The notes beneath the pieces were generated by a model. It ran no database searches and was not told the origin of the DNA. It saw only the letters and a program-made list of their open reading frames with translations. DNA of 64,000 nucleotides from Ilyobacter polytropus DSM 2926 (GTDB lineage Bacteria > Fusobacteriota > Fusobacteriia > Fusobacteriales > Fusobacteriaceae), in NCBI RefSeq assembly GCF_000165505.1, contig NC_014632.1, positions 1-64,000 on the forward strand, in the 5' to 3' direction. Shown here piece after piece: positions 50,395-64,000 of the stretch (within the stretch, counting starts at the first letter, position 1; every line of letters starts with the position of its first letter). A program made the position numbers and the translations under genes.

Positions 50395-51030
50395 TTAATA
50401 CTTATAGGTGTCAAAATATTTTACTAAAGCCTCTCTATTGATTATTTTTATACTATTTTTATATTTTTCTATAATGCCTTCATCGATGAATTGATTGGTA
50501 ATTTTATAAAGAGTGGATTTATTGACATATACTGCTTTAGTTAGCTCTGTATAACTGTCAAAGTGAAAAATATTACTCTCTTTGCAAAAGCAACTTAACA
50601 CATATGCATAGTAGGCAGCGGCACCCCCCTGAGAATCTATATAAAATCCTCTGAGCCCTTGAAAGAGAAGTTTTACACATTTTGGCAAATATTCCTCCGT
50701 AAATAAAGGTGTGCTCAAGATATATTCTTTGAATATAGATTTAGGTATTTCAAATCCAGTAACTTCCTTGCTGTACGCGATAACTTCCCAGTCGCTGCCT
50801 CCTGTAAAATATGCATTAACACCTATAAACTCATCGTCAGAAAATATATAAGGGAACACCTTTTCTCCGTCCTCATCACATCTAATTTTCATTCCTCTAC
50901 CTTTTTTTATATAAAAAACTTTTTCGTCTCCGTCTTCATATATAAACTCTCCTTTTTTATATCTTTTAAATTTAATTTTGTCCCTTACAGACTTAGGTAG
51001 TAGTGTAATTGGAAATTCTGAACTATGCAA
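50395..51030 (-). CDS. Crp/Fnr-family transcriptional regulator
   Basis: Protein of 211 residues: an N-terminal cyclic-nucleotide-binding-like beta-barrel (KFKRYKKGEFIYEDGDE, YIKKGRGMKI) and a C-terminal helix-turn-helix (ELTKAVYVNKSTLYKITNQF). No N-terminal cysteine cluster as in Fnr is apparent, so the effector is unknown. Start TTG at 51030 after AAGGAGG. It is divergent from the HbpS-GRE1 genes across a 335-base gap and is the natural candidate for their local regulator. Confidence 0.8.
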   Translation of the reverse strand: MHSSEFPITLLPKSVRDKIKFKRYKKGEFIYEDGDEKVFYIKKGRGMKIRCDEDGEKVFPYIFSDDEFIGVNAYFTGGSDWEVIAYSKEVTGFEIPKSIFKEYILSTPLFTEEYLPKCVKLLFQGLRGFYIDSQGGAAAYYAYVLSCFCKESNIFHFDSYTELTKAVYVNKSTLYKITNQFIDEGIIEKYKNSIKIINREALVKYFDTYKY

Positions 51031-51365: not shown

Positions 51366-51785
51366 ATGTATAAAGAAACAAAGAGAATCACCTTAGCAGC
51401 AGCAAAACTAATGGGAGAGAAAGCTCTTGAAAAATCTGTGGAGATAGGGAAGCCCTTTGTATTTTCAGTGGTGGATGCAGGCGGACACATACTTTACACC
51501 CAGAGAATGGAGGATGCATTTATAACCAGTATTAGCATAGCTATTGATAAAGCATTTACAGCAGCTACAATGAAAAGAGCTACTCATCTGCTAACTGAAA
51601 GAGTGAAGCCTGAGTCAGAGTTATTTGGATTAAACCATACAAATAACGGTAGGATAGTTCCATTTGGAGGAGGATTACCTGTAACTGTAGATGGAGAGGT
51701 AATAGGTGGAGTTGGAGCCAGTGGTGGAACGGTAGAAGAAGATATCCAAGTAGTCACAGCAGCATTAAATGCACTAGGTTTGTAA
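51366..51785 (+). CDS. HbpS/GlcG-family (DUF336) protein
   Basis: Protein of 139 residues of the heme-degrading/GlcG family: RITLAAAKLMGEKALEKS at the start and PFGGGLPVTVDGEVIGGVGA with SGGTVEEDIQVVTAAL near the end. The same fold forms the C-terminal part of PduO. Members are often found next to diol or glycerol dehydratase genes, where their role is unclear. It precedes the GRE1 activase by 230 bases with a strong hairpin between. Confidence 0.88.
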   Translation: MYKETKRITLAAAKLMGEKALEKSVEIGKPFVFSVVDAGGHILYTQRMEDAFITSISIAIDKAFTAATMKRATHLLTERVKPESELFGLNHTNNGRIVPFGGGLPVTVDGEVIGGVGASGGTVEEDIQVVTAALNALGL

Positions 51786-52015: not shown

Positions 52016-52963
52016 TTGTCTCAGAAAGGAATTATTTTCAATATTCAGCATTTTACAATTCATGACGGACCAGGAATCCGTACAGAGTTGTTTTTGAAAG
52101 GCTGCCCATTGAGATGTGACTGGTGTGGTAATCCTGAAAGCTTAAAAGCTCATATAGAACCAGGTGTATATAGCAGTAAGTGTATTTCAAGAGAAAAATG
52201 TGGTGCATGTGAAGAAGTGTGCTCAGATAAGAGTATGCTAAATTTTAAAGACGGAAAATTAGTTTCTATAGATGGTGGGAAATCAACAGATTGGATTGCC
52301 TGTTATAATGAGTGTCCTTCAGATGCAATCAAACAATGGGGAAAATCCATGTCTGTAGAAGAGTGTATGAAAGAGATACTGAAGGATAAGGGCTACTACG
52401 AACGTTCTGGCGGAGGTGTTACTGTTTCAGGGGGAGATCCAATTCTTCAAAGTGACTTTGTCAGGGAACTTTTTAAAGCTTGTAAAGATGAAGATATTCA
52501 TACTTGTTTTGAATCGACTTTTTATGGAGATTGGAAGGAAGTTGAAAAAGTTTTATCTTATACAGATCTTTTTATCTCAGATCTAAAACATATGGATACA
52601 AATATTCATAAAAAGCATACTGGAGTAAATAATGACAAAATTTTAGAAAATCTAAAAAAGTTAACAAATGAAAAAAAGGAACTTATTTTAAGAATTCCAG
52701 TTATTCCAAATGTAAATGATGATATGAAAAATATAAAAGCTACTGCTGATTTTATATTAAATGAACTCGGAGGTCGTGTGAGAACTCTGCAGCTTTTAAG
52801 CTTTATGCGTCTAGGTGAGGAGAAGTATCAATCATTGGGCATGCCTTATAAGATGAAGGATGTCAATATCGACAGAGAGTCATTTCAAAAGCATGTTAGT
52901 AATTTTGCAGATTATTTTAATAGCCGAGGCATTCACTGTCTGGTAGGTACGAAAGAGAAATAA
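52016..52963 (+). CDS. Glycyl radical enzyme activase 1 (radical SAM)
   Basis: Protein of 315 residues. The radical-SAM motif is CPLRCDWC (Cys30, 34, 37). Six more cysteines (56, 62, 65, 69, 96, 100) form the ferredoxin-like insert that carries auxiliary [4Fe-4S] clusters in activases of dehydratase-type GREs. SGGGVTVSGGDPILQ is the SAM-binding part. It generates the glycyl radical on GRE1. Start TTG at 52016 after GGAGGAGG. It differs from activase 2 at only 24 of 315 positions by my count. GRE1 follows after 41 bases. Confidence 0.93.
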   Translation: MSQKGIIFNIQHFTIHDGPGIRTELFLKGCPLRCDWCGNPESLKAHIEPGVYSSKCISREKCGACEEVCSDKSMLNFKDGKLVSIDGGKSTDWIACYNECPSDAIKQWGKSMSVEECMKEILKDKGYYERSGGGVTVSGGDPILQSDFVRELFKACKDEDIHTCFESTFYGDWKEVEKVLSYTDLFISDLKHMDTNIHKKHTGVNNDKILENLKKLTNEKKELILRIPVIPNVNDDMKNIKATADFILNELGGRVRTLQLLSFMRLGEEKYQSLGMPYKMKDVNIDRESFQKHVSNFADYFNSRGIHCLVGTKEK

Positions 52964-53004: not shown

Positions 53005-55542
53005 ATGAATATTAACGTTACAAGTGCATCAAACACACAAAATCAAGAAAATATTTTATTCAAAGTTTTGATGGGTACAAATGCATGTGGAACAGAGCCT
53101 TTTGACAAGACTTATAGTTTGGGGTATCAGGCTAATCATGAGGATTGGTCTCCATACCCACGTGTAAATTATTTAAGACAAAAATTTTTAGATAGACCAT
53201 ATGACATTGATGTAGAAAGATTAAGATTGGTTACTGAAGCTTATAAGAAACATGAATTGGCACCGCGTAAACTTCAGTGTGCATATGCTTTTGAGAATGT
53301 TTTGTTAAATTCTACGTTGTACATCTATGACCAGGATCTAATTTTAGGTGAGATTGCGGCACCGGCCAAGGCATCCCCTATCTATCCAGAGTTTTCTGTG
53401 GACTGGATCATTGATGAAATATTAAACTCTCCATTTGAAGAACGTTCAAATGATCAATTTTATATTAGAAATGATGAAGAGAGACAAGAAATTTTGGAAC
53501 TTTGCAAATATTGGAAAGGTAAATCTGCTAATGAATTGATAACTGCAAGACTTGATGAGGATCAAAAGAAAGGTTCTCATATGGGGGAAAAGGTATTCCA
53601 AACAAATAACTATCACTTTGCAGGAATAGGTCACTTTGCTATGGATTATAAAAAGCTAATGACCCTTGGATATAATGGAGTAATTCAAGAAGTAAAAGCC
53701 GCTTTTGCTAATTTGAGTAAACAAGACCCAGAGTATGGAGAAAAAAGAGATTACTATAAAGCAACAGTTATTATGCTAGAAGCTTCTAAGAAATATATCA
53801 CTCGTTATGCAAAATTAGCTGAAGATATGGCAGCAGTGGAAACTGATAAAAAGAGAAAGCAGGAGTTCGACTCTATGGCAACTAACTGCCATGCAATAGC
53901 TGGAGATCCGCCAAAAACTTTTTGGCAAGCACTACAGCTTTTCAACTTTGCAACAACTCTTATTCAAATAGAAGGTAATGGTCACTCTATTTCATACGGA
54001 CGTATGGATCAATGGTTATATCCATTTTATGAAGCAGATATGAAAAATAGTAACATCAGCAAAGAGTTTATTCTTGAGCTAATCGAAGTACAATATGTAA
54101 AGATGAACAATCCGACAAAATTAAAAGATAAGGGAACTGTAAAGGTTCGTAACGGACGTGGTTTTGGAGGAGAGAGCCTTACGATCGGTGGAGTAGATAC
54201 ACAGGGTAATGATGCAACTAATGATCTGACAATGTTGATGCTAGAAGGATCTGCACATACACGTATGATGAACCCATGGGTTTGTGTACGTATGCATGAA
54301 AATACTCCTTACGAATTAAAAATAAAAACGACTGAATGTATCAGAGCAGGTTATGGACATCCAAAAATCTTCAATGATGGTCCAGCAATTAAGGCCATGT
54401 TGAGTAAGGGGGTGACCCTCGAAGAGGCAAGAGATTATTGTGTCGTAGGTTGTGTAGAGCCGTCTCTTCCAGGTAAAGAGTTTGGTTGGCAGGACGCAGG
54501 TTATGTGAATACAGCTAAGATGATGGAAATGGTAATCAATGGAGGACGTACATTGATAGAAGGGAAACAACTTGGTCCAGATACTGGTAGTTTAGAGACT
54601 TACAAGAGTTTTGACGATGTTCTTGAAAGCATTGATAAGCAGTTTGCTTACTGGTGTGATCAATTATGTAGCTGTCTAAATATTACAGACGCTGTACATA
54701 GAATGGTTAAACCGACTCCATATGTTTCAGCTTTCTTTGAAGGCTGTATTGAGTCAGGTAAGGATATGACAGAGGGAGGAGCTAAATATAACGGTACTGC
54801 ACCACAGGCGGCAGGTATTGCAACTTGTGCAGATTCTTTATCCACTATTAAGAAGCTGATGTTTGATGATAAGACTCAGACAGGATCAGAATTACTCCAA
54901 GCGGTTAAGGATAACTGGGAGGGACATGAGAAACTTTACGCTCTCGTAAACAGTTCTAAAATACCTCACTACGGAAATGATGATGACTATGCAGATGAAT
55001 TATTTAAGTTTATGTTTGAGTGTTATTGCAGACATATAAAGGGAAGAAAAACTCCTAGAGGTGGAGAATTTAGTCCCGGAGTATATACTGTAAATGCTAA
55101 CGTAGGTATGGGATTATACACTAACGCATCCCTTGACGGTCGTAAAAATAATGAGCCTATCTCTGACAATATGGGACCAGTTCACACTGCTGGTGGCTCA
55201 CATGATATTTCTGGGCCAACTGCTGTTGTAAACTCTGTAGCGAAGGTTGACCATAGTCTTGCAAGTAACGGTACACTTCTAAATTTAAGATTTCCAGAGG
55301 AAGCTGTGGCAGGTATAGAGGGTAGAGACATTCTAGTAAGTTTTATAGAAGAATATATCTATAAGCAAGGAATGCATGTTCAATTTAATGTTATGAGTTC
55401 AGAAACAATGAGGGCAGCTCAAAAGAATCCAGAAAAATATAAGGATATGCTCGTACGTGTGGCAGGATATAGTGCTTACTTTGTAGAGCTTGGTAAACCG
55501 CTACAAGAAGACTTAATTCAACGTACAGAGCTACATTTCTAG
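53005..55542 (+). CDS. Glycyl radical enzyme 1, diol-dehydratase-like (GRE1)
   Basis: Protein of 845 residues. The glycyl radical site is Gly821 in RVAGYSAYF and the thiyl cysteine is Cys483 in GCVEP. His210 (GIGH), His327-Ser328 (GNGHS), Glu485 and Asp497 (GWQD) fall at the spacing of the glycerol dehydratase set His164, His281, Ser282, Glu435, Asp447, which binds the two hydroxyls and removes water. So a B12-independent dehydratase of a vicinal diol is inferred; the substrate may be glycerol, propanediol, dihydroxypropanesulfonate or another. It is about 60 residues longer than the C. butyricum glycerol dehydratase. Frequent CGT arginine codons. Followed by an exporter and an alcohol dehydrogenase. 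Confidence 0.88.
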   Translation: MNINVTSASNTQNQENILFKVLMGTNACGTEPFDKTYSLGYQANHEDWSPYPRVNYLRQKFLDRPYDIDVERLRLVTEAYKKHELAPRKLQCAYAFENVLLNSTLYIYDQDLILGEIAAPAKASPIYPEFSVDWIIDEILNSPFEERSNDQFYIRNDEERQEILELCKYWKGKSANELITARLDEDQKKGSHMGEKVFQTNNYHFAGIGHFAMDYKKLMTLGYNGVIQEVKAAFANLSKQDPEYGEKRDYYKATVIMLEASKKYITRYAKLAEDMAAVETDKKRKQEFDSMATNCHAIAGDPPKTFWQALQLFNFATTLIQIEGNGHSISYGRMDQWLYPFYEADMKNSNISKEFILELIEVQYVKMNNPTKLKDKGTVKVRNGRGFGGESLTIGGVDTQGNDATNDLTMLMLEGSAHTRMMNPWVCVRMHENTPYELKIKTTECIRAGYGHPKIFNDGPAIKAMLSKGVTLEEARDYCVVGCVEPSLPGKEFGWQDAGYVNTAKMMEMVINGGRTLIEGKQLGPDTGSLETYKSFDDVLESIDKQFAYWCDQLCSCLNITDAVHRMVKPTPYVSAFFEGCIESGKDMTEGGAKYNGTAPQAAGIATCADSLSTIKKLMFDDKTQTGSELLQAVKDNWEGHEKLYALVNSSKIPHYGNDDDYADELFKFMFECYCRHIKGRKTPRGGEFSPGVYTVNANVGMGLYTNASLDGRKNNEPISDNMGPVHTAGGSHDISGPTAVVNSVAKVDHSLASNGTLLNLRFPEEAVAGIEGRDILVSFIEEYIYKQGMHVQFNVMSSETMRAAQKNPEKYKDMLVRVAGYSAYFVELGKPLQEDLIQRTELHF

Positions 55543-55642: not shown

Positions 55643-56530
55643 ATGGTTTTTGAATTTGGTTTTTTACTTGTTGGTTTAATGCAAATTTTTGCATTCTTTG
55701 TTCAGGGTACAACAGGGTTTGGCGCCACTGTTATCTCTGCTCCAGTTACAAACGGAATATTAGGTATACCTGTGGGAGTACCATACGGTACGATTATCTG
55801 TATTCCATTCCTATATTACCTTGCAATCAAGGGAAGAAAAGATATCTCTTGGAAAGACTTAGCTAGCATTGTAATCGGTTGTGCACCAGGACTTGTTATT
55901 GGACAGAAATTATTTTATAAACTTAGTCCACAGACTGCAAAGATCTCTATCGGTTCTATGATTATCTTAATAGCAGTTATGAATATTTATAAGTATATTA
56001 TTAAGCCTTTGATGTTAAATGGAGCAGAGGAAGCACCAGTTGAAGATACACTGGGTAGAAAAATCTTCCGTTATAGTTGTCTTATATTGGGTGGGATCGT
56101 TCACGGTGCATTTAACATCGGTGGTCCGCTAATCACTGTATATACTCTAGAGGCTGTAAAAGACAAGAAGAAGTTTAGAAATACTATGACAAGCTTATGG
56201 TGTATCCTAAATGTTTGGAACGCATTTAACCAATATAGAAACGGATTATTTGTTCCAAGACTAGGAATGTCTTTACTTGTGGGAATGCCATTTGCTACAG
56301 CCGGATTCTTCCTTGGAATGAGATTCTTAGAGAAGATCAATAAGGCACAATTCTTAAGAATCGTATACTTAATTCTATTTTTCATCGGAGTTAACATGAC
56401 TGTCAGAAATGTACCAGGAATTCCTAAAAACTTCCAAGGTGCTATAATAGTAATTCCAGTCATCTTAGTAGCAGCACTTCTTACAATTCTTGAGAAAAGA
56501 ACAAGAGCAGCAAAGCTAGTAAAAAATTAA
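55643..56530 (+). CDS. TauE/SafE-family membrane exporter
   Basis: Protein of 295 residues with about eight membrane helices, TauE/SafE type: QGTTGFGATVISAPVTNGIL at the start and GIVHGAFNIGGPLITVYTLE in the second half are the paired family motifs. Members export sulfite, sulfoacetate, other sulfonates or related small anions. Between GRE1 and an alcohol dehydrogenase it suggests that the fermentation end-product, or a released anion, is pushed out of the cell. ATG after AAAGGAGA. Confidence 0.85.
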   Translation: MVFEFGFLLVGLMQIFAFFVQGTTGFGATVISAPVTNGILGIPVGVPYGTIICIPFLYYLAIKGRKDISWKDLASIVIGCAPGLVIGQKLFYKLSPQTAKISIGSMIILIAVMNIYKYIIKPLMLNGAEEAPVEDTLGRKIFRYSCLILGGIVHGAFNIGGPLITVYTLEAVKDKKKFRNTMTSLWCILNVWNAFNQYRNGLFVPRLGMSLLVGMPFATAGFFLGMRFLEKINKAQFLRIVYLILFFIGVNMTVRNVPGIPKNFQGAIIVIPVILVAALLTILEKRTRAAKLVKN

Positions 56531-56601: not shown

Positions 56602-57750
56602 ATGCAAGATTTCAATTTTAAAATACCACAAAATATAAAGTTTGGAATGGGTAGTTTGAAAAAACTTCCAGAAATATTAAAAGAGAATAATTCAGAACAT
56701 GTTTTTCTGATATCTGACCGTGGTCTGGAAAGTATAGGGGTTGTAAAGAAAGTCCAGGAGATTATTGAAGCTGGAGGAATCAAATGTACAGCTTACCTAG
56801 ATGTAAAACCTAATCCGACAATAGATATCGTAAATGAAGCTACAGTATCTTATAAAGAGTGCGGTGCAACAAGTATTGTAGCCCTCGGAGGGGGAAGTCC
56901 GTTAGATGTATCAAAAACTGTAGGAGTTCTTACTACTCATGGCGGAGATATCAGAGATTACGAAGGAACGGATAAAGTTCCTGGTCCAATTGTACCTATT
57001 ATTGCAATTCCTACAACTGCAGGTACAGGAAGTGAAGTAACAGCTTCGTCTGTAATTACAGATGAATCTAGAAACTACAAGTTTTCAATAGTTAGTTATG
57101 AAACTCTTCCTAAATATGCAGTTTTAGATCCAGAGCTTATTATGACAGCACCGGCATCAATTGCTTCCTCTTGTGGAGTTGATGCTCTGATCCATGCAAT
57201 AGAAGCATATCTTTCAAAAAATGCATCACCTTTTACAGATGCAATGGCAGAAAAAGCAATGGAATTAATCGGAAAAAATTTAAGAAAATTTGTGGCAAAT
57301 AGAAAAGATGAGGAAGCAGCATGTGGAATGATGTCAGGAAGTAATTTTGCGGGAATCTCATTTGCATGGGCAAGACTTGGAAATGTACATGCCATGAGCC
57401 ATCCAGTAAGTGCATTTTGCCACGTTCCACACGGTGTAGCAAACTCTGTTCTTCTTCCGACAGTGATGGAATTTAATGCTCTTGTTGATAACGGTCGTTA
57501 TGAAAAGATTTATAACTATATCCGTGAAGGTAATGAAGAAGTAAGAGACTTTAAACCAGAGATGCTTGTAGAAGCACTTAAAAAGCTAAACGAAGATCTT
57601 GGTATTCCAAAATCACTCTCAGAAGTAGGAGTCAAAGAACATATGATTGAGGATATGGCAAAGGATGCAATGAAAAGTGGTAATGTTCTTGCAAACCCAA
57701 GGGAGACAAGTTTGAACGACATGATTGAACTTTATAAAAAGGCAATATAA
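56602..57750 (+). CDS. Iron-containing alcohol dehydrogenase (group III)
   Basis: Protein of 382 residues, close to 1,3-propanediol dehydrogenase (DhaT) in length. NAD-site GGGSPLDVSK; metal ligands in GVDALIHAIEAY (Asp, His), HAMSHPVSAFCHVPHG (His, His). It would reduce the aldehyde made by GRE1 to an alcohol and regenerate NAD+. The SHPVSAFCHVPHG segment differs from the common HPLGGxYxxPHG, so an unusual substrate is possible. ATG after AAGGAGTG; terminator downstream. Confidence 0.88.
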   Translation: MQDFNFKIPQNIKFGMGSLKKLPEILKENNSEHVFLISDRGLESIGVVKKVQEIIEAGGIKCTAYLDVKPNPTIDIVNEATVSYKECGATSIVALGGGSPLDVSKTVGVLTTHGGDIRDYEGTDKVPGPIVPIIAIPTTAGTGSEVTASSVITDESRNYKFSIVSYETLPKYAVLDPELIMTAPASIASSCGVDALIHAIEAYLSKNASPFTDAMAEKAMELIGKNLRKFVANRKDEEAACGMMSGSNFAGISFAWARLGNVHAMSHPVSAFCHVPHGVANSVLLPTVMEFNALVDNGRYEKIYNYIREGNEEVRDFKPEMLVEALKKLNEDLGIPKSLSEVGVKEHMIEDMAKDAMKSGNVLANPRETSLNDMIELYKKAI

Positions 57751-58041: not shown

Positions 58042-59460
58042 ATGAGAATAAAAAGAGAGTATGGAAAAGAAGAGCCTTACATCCCAGCCGGCCCATTTAA
58101 AATTAGACTCCCCTTTGTACATTTAGGGTTTGAAAAACTTGATTTTTATCAGGGCTTGTTATTGTGTGCTGTATGCCTAGGCGCTATTCCTATGCTTCAA
58201 GAATATTTAGGAATGCCTTTTGATGTTGCAATGACCGTTGTTGTTTTAAATGGATTTCTATATTTCCTTCATATATTTTTAGGTGACCCGATTATCCCAG
58301 GGTGGATAACACCAGCGATTCCTATAGTCATGCTTTATGTTAGTCAATACCCAGCTGGAAGTGAAAGGGTTTATGCATTAATAGCATTTCAGTTTTCTCT
58401 GGGACTACTAGCTGTTTTTCTAGGGATTACAGGGCTTGGAAAAAAAGTTACATCCATTGTTCCGAACGCTATGAAGTCGGGTGTTATTATAGGTGCAGGA
58501 ATTGCTGCCGTTAATTCTGTTATGCAAAAGGGTGGACGATTTGAAAAATATCCCATTTCTATTATAATTTGTATGGGGATAGGTTTTTATTTTTTATTTT
58601 CAAGCCATTTTAAAAGCAAAAAGAATCTCAATAAATTCACTAGGCTTCTCGCCGACATGGGATCTCTTCCAATAATTATACTCGCTATAATTTTAGGACC
58701 ATTAGTAGGCGAAGTGACAATATCACATATTGAATGGGGAATTACTACTCTTGCAGTTAAAGAATTAATTACTGAATGGACTATTTTTGGACTGGGTTTA
58801 CCTCCTCTAAAGATGTTTATCAACGGACTCCCCGTTGTAATATCATGTTATATTATACTTTTTGGAGATATGATTCAGGCTCAATCTCTACTGGAAGATG
58901 CTAGTAAAGAAAGACCTGATGAAATAATAGACTATAACGCCAATCGTTCCCACCTGATTTTTGGATTAAGAAATATACTGATGTCTATTTTTGGACCTAA
59001 TATTGCTTTGTGTGGTCCTCTTGCAGCTGCAATGCAGGTAGTTCTTTGTGAAAGATATAAAAATGGTAGAGAGACAATGGACTCTATTCATGGAGGAGCA
59101 GTTTCTTATAGATATGGAACTACTCTTGGATATTTTCTTCTTCCTATTGTTACGTTGGTCAAACCAATACTGGGAATTGCCCTTGCGGCCACTATGCTTA
59201 TTCAAGGGTATGTATCTGTCCGAGTGGGAGTTATGAAATCAAAAACCTCTAATGACTTAGGGATTGCTGGTATCATGGCTGCTGTTATAGCGACTAGGGG
59301 AGCTGCCTGGGGACTTGCAGCTGGCATTCTTCTTTGTGGCTTTATCAATATCGGAAAAAATGAAGAATTTGAATCTCCATTACTTGAGGATTCTAATTCT
59401 GCTGATTTAGTAGTTGGTGAAGAGATAGAGTTGAAAGAAGTGAAGTTAAAAGAAGCATAA
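58042..59460 (+). CDS. NCS2-like (xanthine/uracil permease type) transporter
   Basis: Protein of 472 residues with about 12 to 13 membrane helices, similar in layout to the nucleobase/ascorbate (NCS2, SLC23) transporters: IPGWITPAIPIVMLYV, the GLGKKVTSIVPNAMKSGVII segment, and FGPNIALCGPLAAAMQ in the second half. The usual xanthine/uracil substrates make little sense in this neighbourhood, so it may import the GRE substrate. Acidic C-terminal tail. ATG after AAGGAGGAG; a shared terminator follows. Confidence 0.6.
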   Translation: MRIKREYGKEEPYIPAGPFKIRLPFVHLGFEKLDFYQGLLLCAVCLGAIPMLQEYLGMPFDVAMTVVVLNGFLYFLHIFLGDPIIPGWITPAIPIVMLYVSQYPAGSERVYALIAFQFSLGLLAVFLGITGLGKKVTSIVPNAMKSGVIIGAGIAAVNSVMQKGGRFEKYPISIIICMGIGFYFLFSSHFKSKKNLNKFTRLLADMGSLPIIILAIILGPLVGEVTISHIEWGITTLAVKELITEWTIFGLGLPPLKMFINGLPVVISCYIILFGDMIQAQSLLEDASKERPDEIIDYNANRSHLIFGLRNILMSIFGPNIALCGPLAAAMQVVLCERYKNGRETMDSIHGGAVSYRYGTTLGYFLLPIVTLVKPILGIALAATMLIQGYVSVRVGVMKSKTSNDLGIAGIMAAVIATRGAAWGLAAGILLCGFINIGKNEEFESPLLEDSNSADLVVGEEIELKEVKLKEA

Positions 59461-60852: not shown

Positions 60853-61695
60853 ATGAATAACTATGATTTTAATTTAAAAGATAAGGTAGCCGTCATTACA
60901 GGCGGAGGAGGAGTTCTTACAGGTGTTTTTGCTGAGGCTCTATGTACACGAGGTGCAAAAGTTGCACTATTTGATATTAACAAAGAGGCCGCTGATATGG
61001 CAGCAGAAAAATTAATGTCAGCTGGAGGAATTGCTAAAGGTTATAAAGCAGATGTTCTTTCAAAAGAAAGTTTAACCGCCGCTTATGAAGAAGTAAAAAA
61101 AGACTTTGGGACCTGTGATATTCTTTTAAATGGTGCAGGGGTTCATCATCCTTTGGCTACAACTGGACACGAGCAACTTACAAAAGAAAATATGGGTGAC
61201 GGAAGAACTTTCTTTGATTTAGATATAGAGAAAGTAGAGTGGGTATACGACATCGATTTTATGGGGACCTTCCTTCCAACACAAGTTATTTCTAAAGATA
61301 TGGTAGGAAAAACCGGATGTTCAGTTATTAATATTTCATCTATGAATGCAATTAGTCCTACGACTACTGTTCCTATTTATTCTGCAGCAAAAGCAGGGGT
61401 AAATAATTTCACTGCTTGGCTCTCTTCTTACTTTGCTTTAGTAGGTATTCGTGTAAACGCTCTTGCTCCTGGATTCTTTGTTACAAATCTAAATAAAAAT
61501 ATTATGTACAAAGAAGATGGTAACTTAAGTGGTCGTTCTGAAAGGATTATTGCTGGAACACCGATGTCAAGATTTGGTAATCCAGATGAATGTGCAGGAA
61601 CATTACTTTATTTATTAGATCCAAAACTTTCAGGATTTGTAACAGGAGCAGTTATACCAATTGATGGTGGTTTTAGTAATTATTGCGGTGTATAA
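60853..61695 (+). CDS. SDR oxidoreductase, D-mannonate oxidoreductase (YjmF)-like
   Basis: Protein of 280 residues, a classical short-chain dehydrogenase: cofactor loop TGGGGVLTG, NGAG, the catalytic Ser in NISSMNAISP, and YSAAK with Tyr and Lys. The GRTFFDLDIEKVEWVYDIDF insert, APGFFVTNLNK and the IDGGFSNYCGV end closely resemble Bacillus YjmF/UxuB-type fructuronate reductase (D-mannonate oxidoreductase). Here it may oxidise or isomerise a hydroxylated GRE substrate. ATG after AGGAGGAG. Same strand as activase 2 but separated by a terminator. Confidence 0.85.
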   Translation: MNNYDFNLKDKVAVITGGGGVLTGVFAEALCTRGAKVALFDINKEAADMAAEKLMSAGGIAKGYKADVLSKESLTAAYEEVKKDFGTCDILLNGAGVHHPLATTGHEQLTKENMGDGRTFFDLDIEKVEWVYDIDFMGTFLPTQVISKDMVGKTGCSVINISSMNAISPTTTVPIYSAAKAGVNNFTAWLSSYFALVGIRVNALAPGFFVTNLNKNIMYKEDGNLSGRSERIIAGTPMSRFGNPDECAGTLLYLLDPKLSGFVTGAVIPIDGGFSNYCGV

Positions 61696-62060: not shown

Positions 62061-63008
62061 TTGTTGAACGGAGGAATTATTTTCAATATTCAGCATTTTA
62101 CAATTCATGACGGACCAGGAATCCGTACAGAGTTGTTTTTGAAGGGATGTCCACTAAGATGTGATTGGTGTGGTAATCCTGAGAGCTTAAAAGCTTATAT
62201 AGAACCAGGTGTATATAGCAGTAAGTGCATAACGCAAGAAAAATGTGGTGCATGTGAAGAAGTGTGTTCAGATAAAAATATGCTCAATTTTAAAGATGGA
62301 AAATTAGTTTCTATAGATGGTGGAAAATCAACAGATTGGATTGCCTGTTATAATGAGTGTCCTTCAGATGCAATCAAACAATGGGGAAAATCCATGTCTG
62401 TAGAAGAGTGTATGAAAGAGATACTAAAAGATAAGGGCTACTACGAACGTTCTGGCGGAGGTGTTACTGTTTCAGGGGGAGATCCAATCCTTCAAATTGA
62501 TTTTGTCAGAGAACTTTTTAAAGCTTGTAAAGGTGAAGATATTCATACTTGTTTTGAATCAACTTTTTATGGAGAGTGGAAGGAAGTTGAGAAAGTTTTA
62601 TCTTATACAGATCTTTTTATCTCAGATTTAAAACATATGGATACAAATATTCATAAAAAACATACTGGAGTGCATAATGAAAAGATATTAGAAAATCTTA
62701 AGAGACTTACAAATGAAGATCGGGAGCTTATTTTAAGAATTCCAGTTATTCCAAATGTAAATGATGATATGGAAAATATAAAAGCGACTGCTGATTTTAT
62801 ATTAAACGATCTCGGTGGTCGTGTGAGAACGCTACAGCTTTTGAGCTTTATGCGTCTAGGTGAGGAGAAATATAAATCATTGGGTATAGCTTATAAAATT
62901 AAGGATGTCAATATTGACAGAGAATCATTTCAAAAGCATGTTAATAAACTTGCAGACTATTTTAATAGCCGAGGCATACACTGTCTGGTAGGTACCAAAG
63001 AAAAATAA
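62061..63008 (+). CDS. Glycyl radical enzyme activase 2 (radical SAM)
   Basis: Protein of 315 residues, about 92% identical to activase 1, with the same CPLRCDWC radical-SAM motif and six insert cysteines. The identity continues into the short downstream gap. It should activate GRE2 but could probably serve both enzymes. TTG start at 62061 after GGAGGAGG (a second TTG follows at once). Substitutions are scattered, with clusters at the extreme N-terminus and residues 205-225. Confidence 0.92.
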   Translation: MLNGGIIFNIQHFTIHDGPGIRTELFLKGCPLRCDWCGNPESLKAYIEPGVYSSKCITQEKCGACEEVCSDKNMLNFKDGKLVSIDGGKSTDWIACYNECPSDAIKQWGKSMSVEECMKEILKDKGYYERSGGGVTVSGGDPILQIDFVRELFKACKGEDIHTCFESTFYGEWKEVEKVLSYTDLFISDLKHMDTNIHKKHTGVHNEKILENLKRLTNEDRELILRIPVIPNVNDDMENIKATADFILNDLGGRVRTLQLLSFMRLGEEKYKSLGIAYKIKDVNIDRESFQKHVNKLADYFNSRGIHCLVGTKEK

Positions 63009-63046
63009 TAAAAAATAAACTTTATATTTATAAGGGAGGAATTTTA

Positions 63047-64000
63047 ATGAATGTTAACGCTACGAGTGTATCACAGGTGGAAGAGTCAAATGATATTTTA
63101 ATCAATTCTTTACAAAATACAAAAGGTGATGGGGTTGCATGTGGAACTGAGCCTTTTGATCATACTTACGGCGTAGGTTACCAGGTTGGCCATGAAGACT
63201 GGTCTCCTTTTCCTAGAGTAAACAAGTTAAGACAAACATTTTTAGACAGAACTTATGAAATTGACGTACAAAGATTAAGGTTGGTCACAGAAGCGTATAA
63301 AAATAATGAAAATGTCCCAAGAATATTACAATGTGCATATGCATTTGATAATGTATTGCGTAATGTTGAGTTAAATGTGTATGATGAAGAGCTTATTTTA
63401 GGAGAGTTAGCAGCTCCGGCAAAAGCTACACCTATCTATCCTGAGTTTTCTGTTGAATGGATCATCGATGAAATTTTGAACTTCCCATTTGAGGAGCGAG
63501 CATATGATCAATTCTACATAAGAAATGATAAAGAGAGACAAGAGATCTTAGATCTTTGTGAGTACTGGAGAGGTAAAACAGTTGCTAGTTTAGCAGATGC
63601 GAGACTAGATCAGGATCAGAGAAAGGGTTCTCAGTTCGGAGAGGATATCTATAAAACCAACTATTACCACTATGCAGGTGTTGGACACATTTCTATTGAT
63701 TATGAAAGATTGATGAAGCTTGGATATGATGGTATTATTGAAAGTGCTGAAAAAGCAAAGGCTAACTTGAATAAAAGAGATTTTGAATATGCAGATAAAA
63801 GAGATTTCTATCAGGCAACATTAATTATGCTAAAGGCTGCAAAGGCTCATATTGCTCGTTATGTACCTCTTGTAAGAGAACATGCAGAAAAAGAAGCAGA
63901 TCCAAAGAGAAAAGAAGAGTTACTAGCTATGGCAGCTAACTGTGAACAAATATCCGGTGGAGCACCTAAAACTTTCTGGCAAGCTATGCAGTTATTCAGC
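63047..64000 (+). CDS. Glycyl radical enzyme 2 (GRE2), N-terminal part, cut by window end
   Basis: The frame is open for 318 codons to the window edge. It aligns without gaps to GRE1 from residue 31 on at roughly 65% identity. It keeps CGTEPFD, AAPAKATPIYPEFSVEWIIDE and GVGH with His214 (His210 of GRE1). In the substrate loop before that histidine it differs: Lys203 for Gln199 and Tyr206 for Asn202. So it is probably a related dehydratase-type GRE with another substrate preference. The cysteine and glycyl sites lie beyond the window. ATG after AAGGGAGG, 38 bases after activase 2. Confidence 0.85.
   Translation, partial: MNVNATSVSQVEESNDILINSLQNTKGDGVACGTEPFDHTYGVGYQVGHEDWSPFPRVNKLRQTFLDRTYEIDVQRLRLVTEAYKNNENVPRILQCAYAFDNVLRNVELNVYDEELILGELAAPAKATPIYPEFSVEWIIDEILNFPFEERAYDQFYIRNDKERQEILDLCEYWRGKTVASLADARLDQDQRKGSQFGEDIYKTNYYHYAGVGHISIDYERLMKLGYDGIIESAEKAKANLNKRDFEYADKRDFYQATLIMLKAAKAHIARYVPLVREHAEKEADPKRKEELLAMAANCEQISGGAPKTFWQAMQLFS

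Follow-up and report, generated by a model that had tools for sequence, protein, structure and literature searches.

2,3-Dihydroxypropane-1-sulfonate (DHPS) is an abundant sulfonate made by phytoplankton and green plants. The original paper on HpfG, the glycyl radical enzyme that dehydrates it, is reportedly that of Liu et al. in PNAS in 2020. The published pathway starts with the dehydration of DHPS to 3-sulfopropionaldehyde by HpfG; HpfD then reduces the aldehyde to 3-hydroxypropanesulfonate, and HpfE exports the product (PMC11489063, PMC12890257). HpfD was identified in Hungatella hathewayi (PMC12890257), and HpfE, the exporter of the sulfonated product, is found in published hpf clusters (PMC11489063). 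The HpfG enzymes of Klebsiella oxytoca, H. hathewayi and Enterococcus gilvus are the closest known system to the locus described here. Further points of comparison are the B12-independent glycerol dehydratase (GD) of Clostridium butyricum (1R8W/1R9D), the 1,2-propanediol dehydratases (Roseburia 5i2a; 9rco), and the C-S lyases IslA/IseG (7kq3, 5ymr) and HpsG (6lon), the last of which acts on DHPS, the same substrate as HpfG.

Ilyobacter polytropus DSM 2926 is a marine anaerobe of the family Fusobacteriaceae. Its genome of 3,132,314 bases lies on three contigs, and the stretch analyzed here (the window) comprises the first 64,000 nucleotides of a contig of 2,046,464 bases. An intact and complete open reading frame of 845 residues on the + strand (53005-55542), referred to as GRE1, very probably encodes an HpfG, a glycyl radical dehydratase of DHPS that leaves the C-S bond intact. 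Oxygen-sensitive radical enzymes of this type are known and GRE1 is an ordinary one in that respect; what the analysis adds is a likely substrate, a rationale for the neighboring exporter, a predicted sulfonate anchor that lends itself to testing and a second lineage of HpfG. The features discussed below are as follows.

52016..52963, + strand: hpfH, radical SAM activase of HpfG (NF048008, 585.9 bits, cut-off 500)
53005..55542, + strand: hpfG (GRE1), predicted DHPS dehydratase, glycyl radical enzyme, 845 aa (NF048009, 1666.6 bits, cut-off 1000)
53632..53634, + strand: His210 codon (= GD His164; Gln in IslA/HpsG)
53983..53988, + strand: His327-Ser328 codons (= GD His281-Ser282; Thr-Thr in IslA)
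54148..54159, + strand: Arg382 to Arg385 codons (invariant HpfG arginines replacing GD Phe333/Tyr336; predicted sulfonate anchor)
54451..54459, + strand: Cys483-Val-Glu485 codons (thiyl radical and CXE motif)
54493..54495, + strand: Asp497 codon (= GD Asp447; Gly in IslA/HpsG)
55465..55467, + strand: Gly821 codon (radical glycine)
55643..56530, + strand: TauE/SafE-family transporter, probable HpfE, exporter of 3-hydroxypropanesulfonate (PF01925, 76 bits)
56602..57750, + strand: hpfD, iron alcohol dehydrogenase, probable 3-sulfopropionaldehyde reductase (PF00465/PF25137)
62061..63008, + strand: hpfH2, second-operon activase (92.4% identical to hpfH)
63047..64000, + strand: hpfG2 (GRE2), start of a second HpfG, which continues to contig position 65605

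Identity of GRE1 and its partner genes

GRE1 scored well above the curated equivalog cut-off of the NCBIfam HpfG model and fell far under those of the other equivalog models (HypD 556 against 1100, CutC 528 against 1050, HpsG 508 against 1000). It is 76% identical to HpfG of H. hathewayi and 79% identical to that of Klebsiella spallanzanii, with an overall range of 76-91% among HpfG proteins. The adjacent gene encodes a dedicated HpfH activase that likewise exceeds its model's cut-off, and an HpfD-type iron alcohol dehydrogenase (ADH) and a TauE-type exporter are linked to it. This set of activase, glycyl radical enzyme (GRE), TauE protein and iron ADH is common to the Ilyobacter, H. hathewayi and K. 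spallanzanii loci; HpfH-HpfG-TauE-iron ADH is also the gene order in H. hathewayi, and TauE and ADH relatives adjoin HpfG in Klebsiella and Enterococcus as well. The TauE proteins of the first and second Ilyobacter operons are 64-68% identical (one value each) to the TauE protein beside Hungatella hpfG, and the hpfD product is 79% identical to the ADH of the Hungatella cluster. The iron ADH exceeded no NCBIfam equivalog cut-off, and the same was true of the Hungatella and Klebsiella cluster ADHs. GRE1 thus resembles the known HpfG enzymes in identity, partners (HpfH, TauE-type HpfE, HpfD) and catalytic residues; it is unlike most of them in having Asn rather than Leu at residue 202 and a second, diverged HpfG 7.5 kb downstream.

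The initial annotation had remarked that the TauE/SafE neighbor alone would suggest a sulfite-releasing lyase. This hint is not in conflict with dehydration, as the published pathway exports a sulfonated product through HpfE, so a TauE/SafE neighbor fits a dehydratase, and in hpf clusters it suits a sulfonate exporter and does not indicate sulfite release.

A shallow look at sulfoquinovose genes, covering GH31 and TAL_FSA, turned up nothing to suggest a local sulfo-TAL pathway. The genome contains no GH31 glycosidase and hence no YihQ-type sulfoquinovosidase, which is consistent with imported DHPS, and the one TAL_FSA transaldolase match is on another replicon. Downstream of hpfD, positions 58042-59460 of the window encode a 472-aa permease whose best Pfam match, to xanthine/uracil permease, is below cut-off at 17 bits and which has no NCBIfam match above cut-off. 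Its orthologues (79-81% identical, in Fusobacteriaceae) adjoin GRE1-type hpfG in three genomes (G053, G056 and G058), and the protein is a candidate DHPS importer. An HbpS/GlcG-like protein (51366-51785) and a cyclic-nucleotide-binding, Crp-like regulator (50395-51030) also accompany GRE1-type operons in other Fusobacteriaceae, where the HbpS-like gene is located at the opposite end, between the ADH and permease genes.

Active-site residues and the type of reaction

Catalytic residues were compared in a MAFFT L-INS-i alignment of GRE1, GRE2, 58 HpfG-like proteins and other eliminases, with the GD, propanediol dehydratase, IslA and HpsG sequences rebuilt from HMMER alignments to PDB chains. GRE1 is 38% identical to GD (1r8w) and 37-38% identical to the propanediol dehydratases. 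The initial annotation had counted six residues of GRE1 as matching the spacing of GD; every position was correct in the translation, and all six align as claimed (H210=H164, H327=H281, S328=S282, C483=C433, E485=E435, D497=D447), as does Gly821 with the radical glycine of GD, Gly763. Judging from its near-complete retention among HpfG relatives, the match is more than chance: H210, H327, S328 and C483 are kept in every relative covering the position, D497 differs in one of the 58 HpfG-like proteins, and all six are found in essentially all relatives examined. Outside the HpfG relatives, the full H-H-S-C-E-D set occurred among the aligned eliminases only in GRE1, GRE2, GD and the propanediol dehydratases. 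HypD-type enzymes have H-D-A/S-C-E-L at these columns, IslA has Q-T-T-C-E-G and HpsG has Q-A-I-C-E-G. GRE1 therefore carries the residues of the glycerol and propanediol dehydratases together with the glycyl radical loop, Cys-X-Glu motif and His/His/Ser/Asp residues expected of HpfG.

The pattern had initially been read as a whole as pointing to dehydration, a reading that holds for part of it. Cys483, Glu485 and Gly821 are also found in the C-S lyases, which share the glycyl radical eliminase fold and the CXE motif with GRE1, so that only H210, H327, S328 and D497 discriminate. At these four positions IslA, IseG and HpsG have Gln, Thr or Ala, Thr or Ile, and Gly, respectively. The sulfonate in IslA is bound by Arg189, Gln193 and Arg678 (PMC8473560), and the corresponding residues of GRE1 are Ala206, His210 and Gly692; HpsG carries the two arginines as well. 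The isethionate-lyase sulfonate-binding residues, named at the outset as what would speak against dehydration, are therefore absent.

A C-S lyase resembling IslA or HpsG, whose sulfite would be exported by the TauE/SafE protein, is extremely improbable as a description of GRE1. In its favor are the TauE/SafE neighbor, the use of DHPS by HpsG, and two sulfite/nitrite reductase-family (PF01077) proteins elsewhere in the genome, by reason of which a missing sulfite reductase is no argument against such a lyase. Opposed to these are the absence of the lyase residues Arg189, Gln193 and Arg678, the presence of Asp497, an identity of about 30% to HpsG-type proteins and a score of 507.8 bits against the cut-off of 1000 for the HpsG equivalog NF048011. 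The discriminating residues, the missing lyase arginines and the decisive HpfG family match support a predicted dehydration rather than C-S cleavage, as the initial annotation had proposed.

An AlphaFold2 model of GRE1 (pLDDT 85, pTM 0.88) was overlaid as a whole chain on known structures. It superimposed on GD (1r8w) with Z 45.7 and 1.8 A over 773 residues and on the propanediol dehydratases with Z 44.5-46.6; values for the C-S lyases IseG, IslA and HpsG were Z about 40 and 2.4-2.6 A. In this comparison, suggested with the initial annotation, the chain as a whole is nearer GD than isethionate lyase, which is not a measurement of the active site. The C-N lyase CutC overlays the model as highly as the dehydratases do. 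The overlays are consistent with placing the modeled GRE1 in the dehydratase group.

Predicted sulfonate binding and a proposed mechanism

The loop on the pocket side that carries Phe333 and Tyr336 in GD has Arg382 and Arg385 in GRE1, with one extra loop residue in the GRE1 comparison. Both arginines are fixed across the HpfG relatives examined and missing from the other eliminases in the comparison; the Arg382 column holds Phe333 in GD and Phe338 in the Roseburia enzyme. The carboxylate of the HypD substrate is hydrogen-bonded by Ser334, the S334A variant is inactive, and GD Phe333 fills the same space according to the HypD authors (PMC7077986). A confirmed HypD in our alignment (L068, 1508.8 bits) has Ser in this column, as expected for Ser334. 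Because Arg382 takes the column of a carboxylate-binding residue, it is the predicted sulfonate anchor of GRE1, with Arg385 perhaps a further contact.

These arginines bear on whether GRE1 might be a glycerol or 1,2-propanediol dehydratase with sulfonate genes nearby by coincidence. The six catalytic residues are the same and the closest PDB sequences are GD and the propanediol dehydratases (37-38%), yet we consider this very unlikely in light of the 76-91% identity to HpfG proteins, the score above the HpfG cut-off, the invariant arginines in place of Phe333 and Tyr336, and the conserved TauE and HpfD partners. The most likely substrate, as read from sequence, is a sulfonated diol (DHPS) rather than glycerol, and the enzyme would be a dehydratase that must also bind a sulfonate.

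Gene identities, residue equivalence and operon conservation were established here, and the reaction, its products and their export are taken from the literature on relatives; we infer the detailed radical steps, the role of Arg382 and the use of the same substrate by the Ilyobacter enzyme. In the proposed mechanism, HpfH (52016-52963) would generate a radical on Gly821, which would pass to Cys483, and Cys483 would abstract hydrogen from the DHPS hydroxymethyl carbon. The sulfonate would probably be held by Arg382, perhaps with Arg385, in place of GD Phe333/Tyr336, while Glu485, His210, His327, Ser328 and Asp497 would help the C2 hydroxyl leave as water. The product would be 3-sulfopropionaldehyde with its C-S bond uncut, which the iron ADH (HpfD) would reduce to 3-hydroxypropanesulfonate with oxidation of NADH, and the TauE/SafE protein (HpfE) would export this compound.

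A second HpfG lineage and its possible significance

A second hpf operon occupies window positions 62061-64000 and positions 64001-67786 of the contig beyond it (locus L007). GRE2 (contig 63047-65605), which begins in the last kilobase of the window, scored 1611.7 bits against the HpfG model, above cut-off. The operons differ in how far each gene pair has diverged: the activases share 92.4% identity and the reductases 93.5%, as against 72.8% for the GREs and 69.4% for the TauE proteins, and DNA identity changes close to gene borders. The near-identity of the activases and reductases has the look of gene conversion at either end of the operon, and selection may be keeping the dehydratase/exporter pairs distinct while activase and reductase are homogenized. 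The second operon is preceded by a short-chain dehydrogenase/reductase (SDR) of the D-mannonate oxidoreductase subfamily (window 60853-61695) and followed by a DASS/CitMHS-type transporter (L007:7930-9342) and a third TauE/SafE protein (L007:9722-10474), all conserved with the operon in a related Fusobacteriaceae genome (G042). A relative of the DASS transporter (28-30%) follows the hpf genes in Hungatella and Enterococcus.

In the tree, GRE1 grouped with Fusobacteriaceae and marine gammaproteobacterial proteins, and GRE2 belonged to a distinct six-member clade (SH-aLRT 99) that also holds proteins of the related Fusobacteriaceae genome, Clostridium, Epulopiscium, Chakrabartyella and Erysipelotrichaceae. 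A single clade (SH-aLRT 99) united the G042 activase with those of the two Ilyobacter operons. G042 has only GRE2-type hpfG, in G053, G056 and G058 hpfG is of the GRE1 type alone, and both lineages are also present in Chakrabartyella piscis (L037) and in one Erysipelotrichaceae MAG (contigs L038 and L051). Among the substitutions of the GRE2 clade are Cys for Gly386 and Ala for Phe387, adjacent to Arg385. Residue 202, in the column of GD Asn156, is Tyr in the three GRE2-type sequences covering the position, as against Asn in GRE1 and its marine relatives or Leu in Klebsiella and Hungatella HpfG. The GRE2 pocket thus appears altered relative to that of GRE1.

Asn202 and the two lineages side by side could also mean that GRE1 itself is an HpfG-family dehydratase preferring a related sulfonated or anionic diol over (S)-DHPS; with the remaining HpfG-specific residues all kept and the usual partner genes in place, this is unlikely, and DHPS remains the likelier substrate. 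As for the tandem operons, they may represent two functionally distinct HpfG lineages, of which the GRE2 type might use another sulfonate, such as the other DHPS enantiomer, each lineage having its own TauE exporter beside a nearly identical activase and reductase; we make this suggestion tentatively and hold it to be less likely than not. Seawater and diatoms contain both enantiomers (PMC11131964), which makes chirality one possible reason for having two lineages.

Whether DHPS is dehydrated anaerobically, with the sulfonate kept and no H2S formed, or cleaved to sulfite and then H2S, decides the fate of its sulfur, and the residue set described here separates dehydration from cleavage by sequence. 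An anchor at Arg382 would explain the acceptance of a sulfonated diol by a GD-type active site. Should the two HpfG lineages prove to have different substrates or chirality, they would represent an extra branch of anaerobic sulfonate metabolism.
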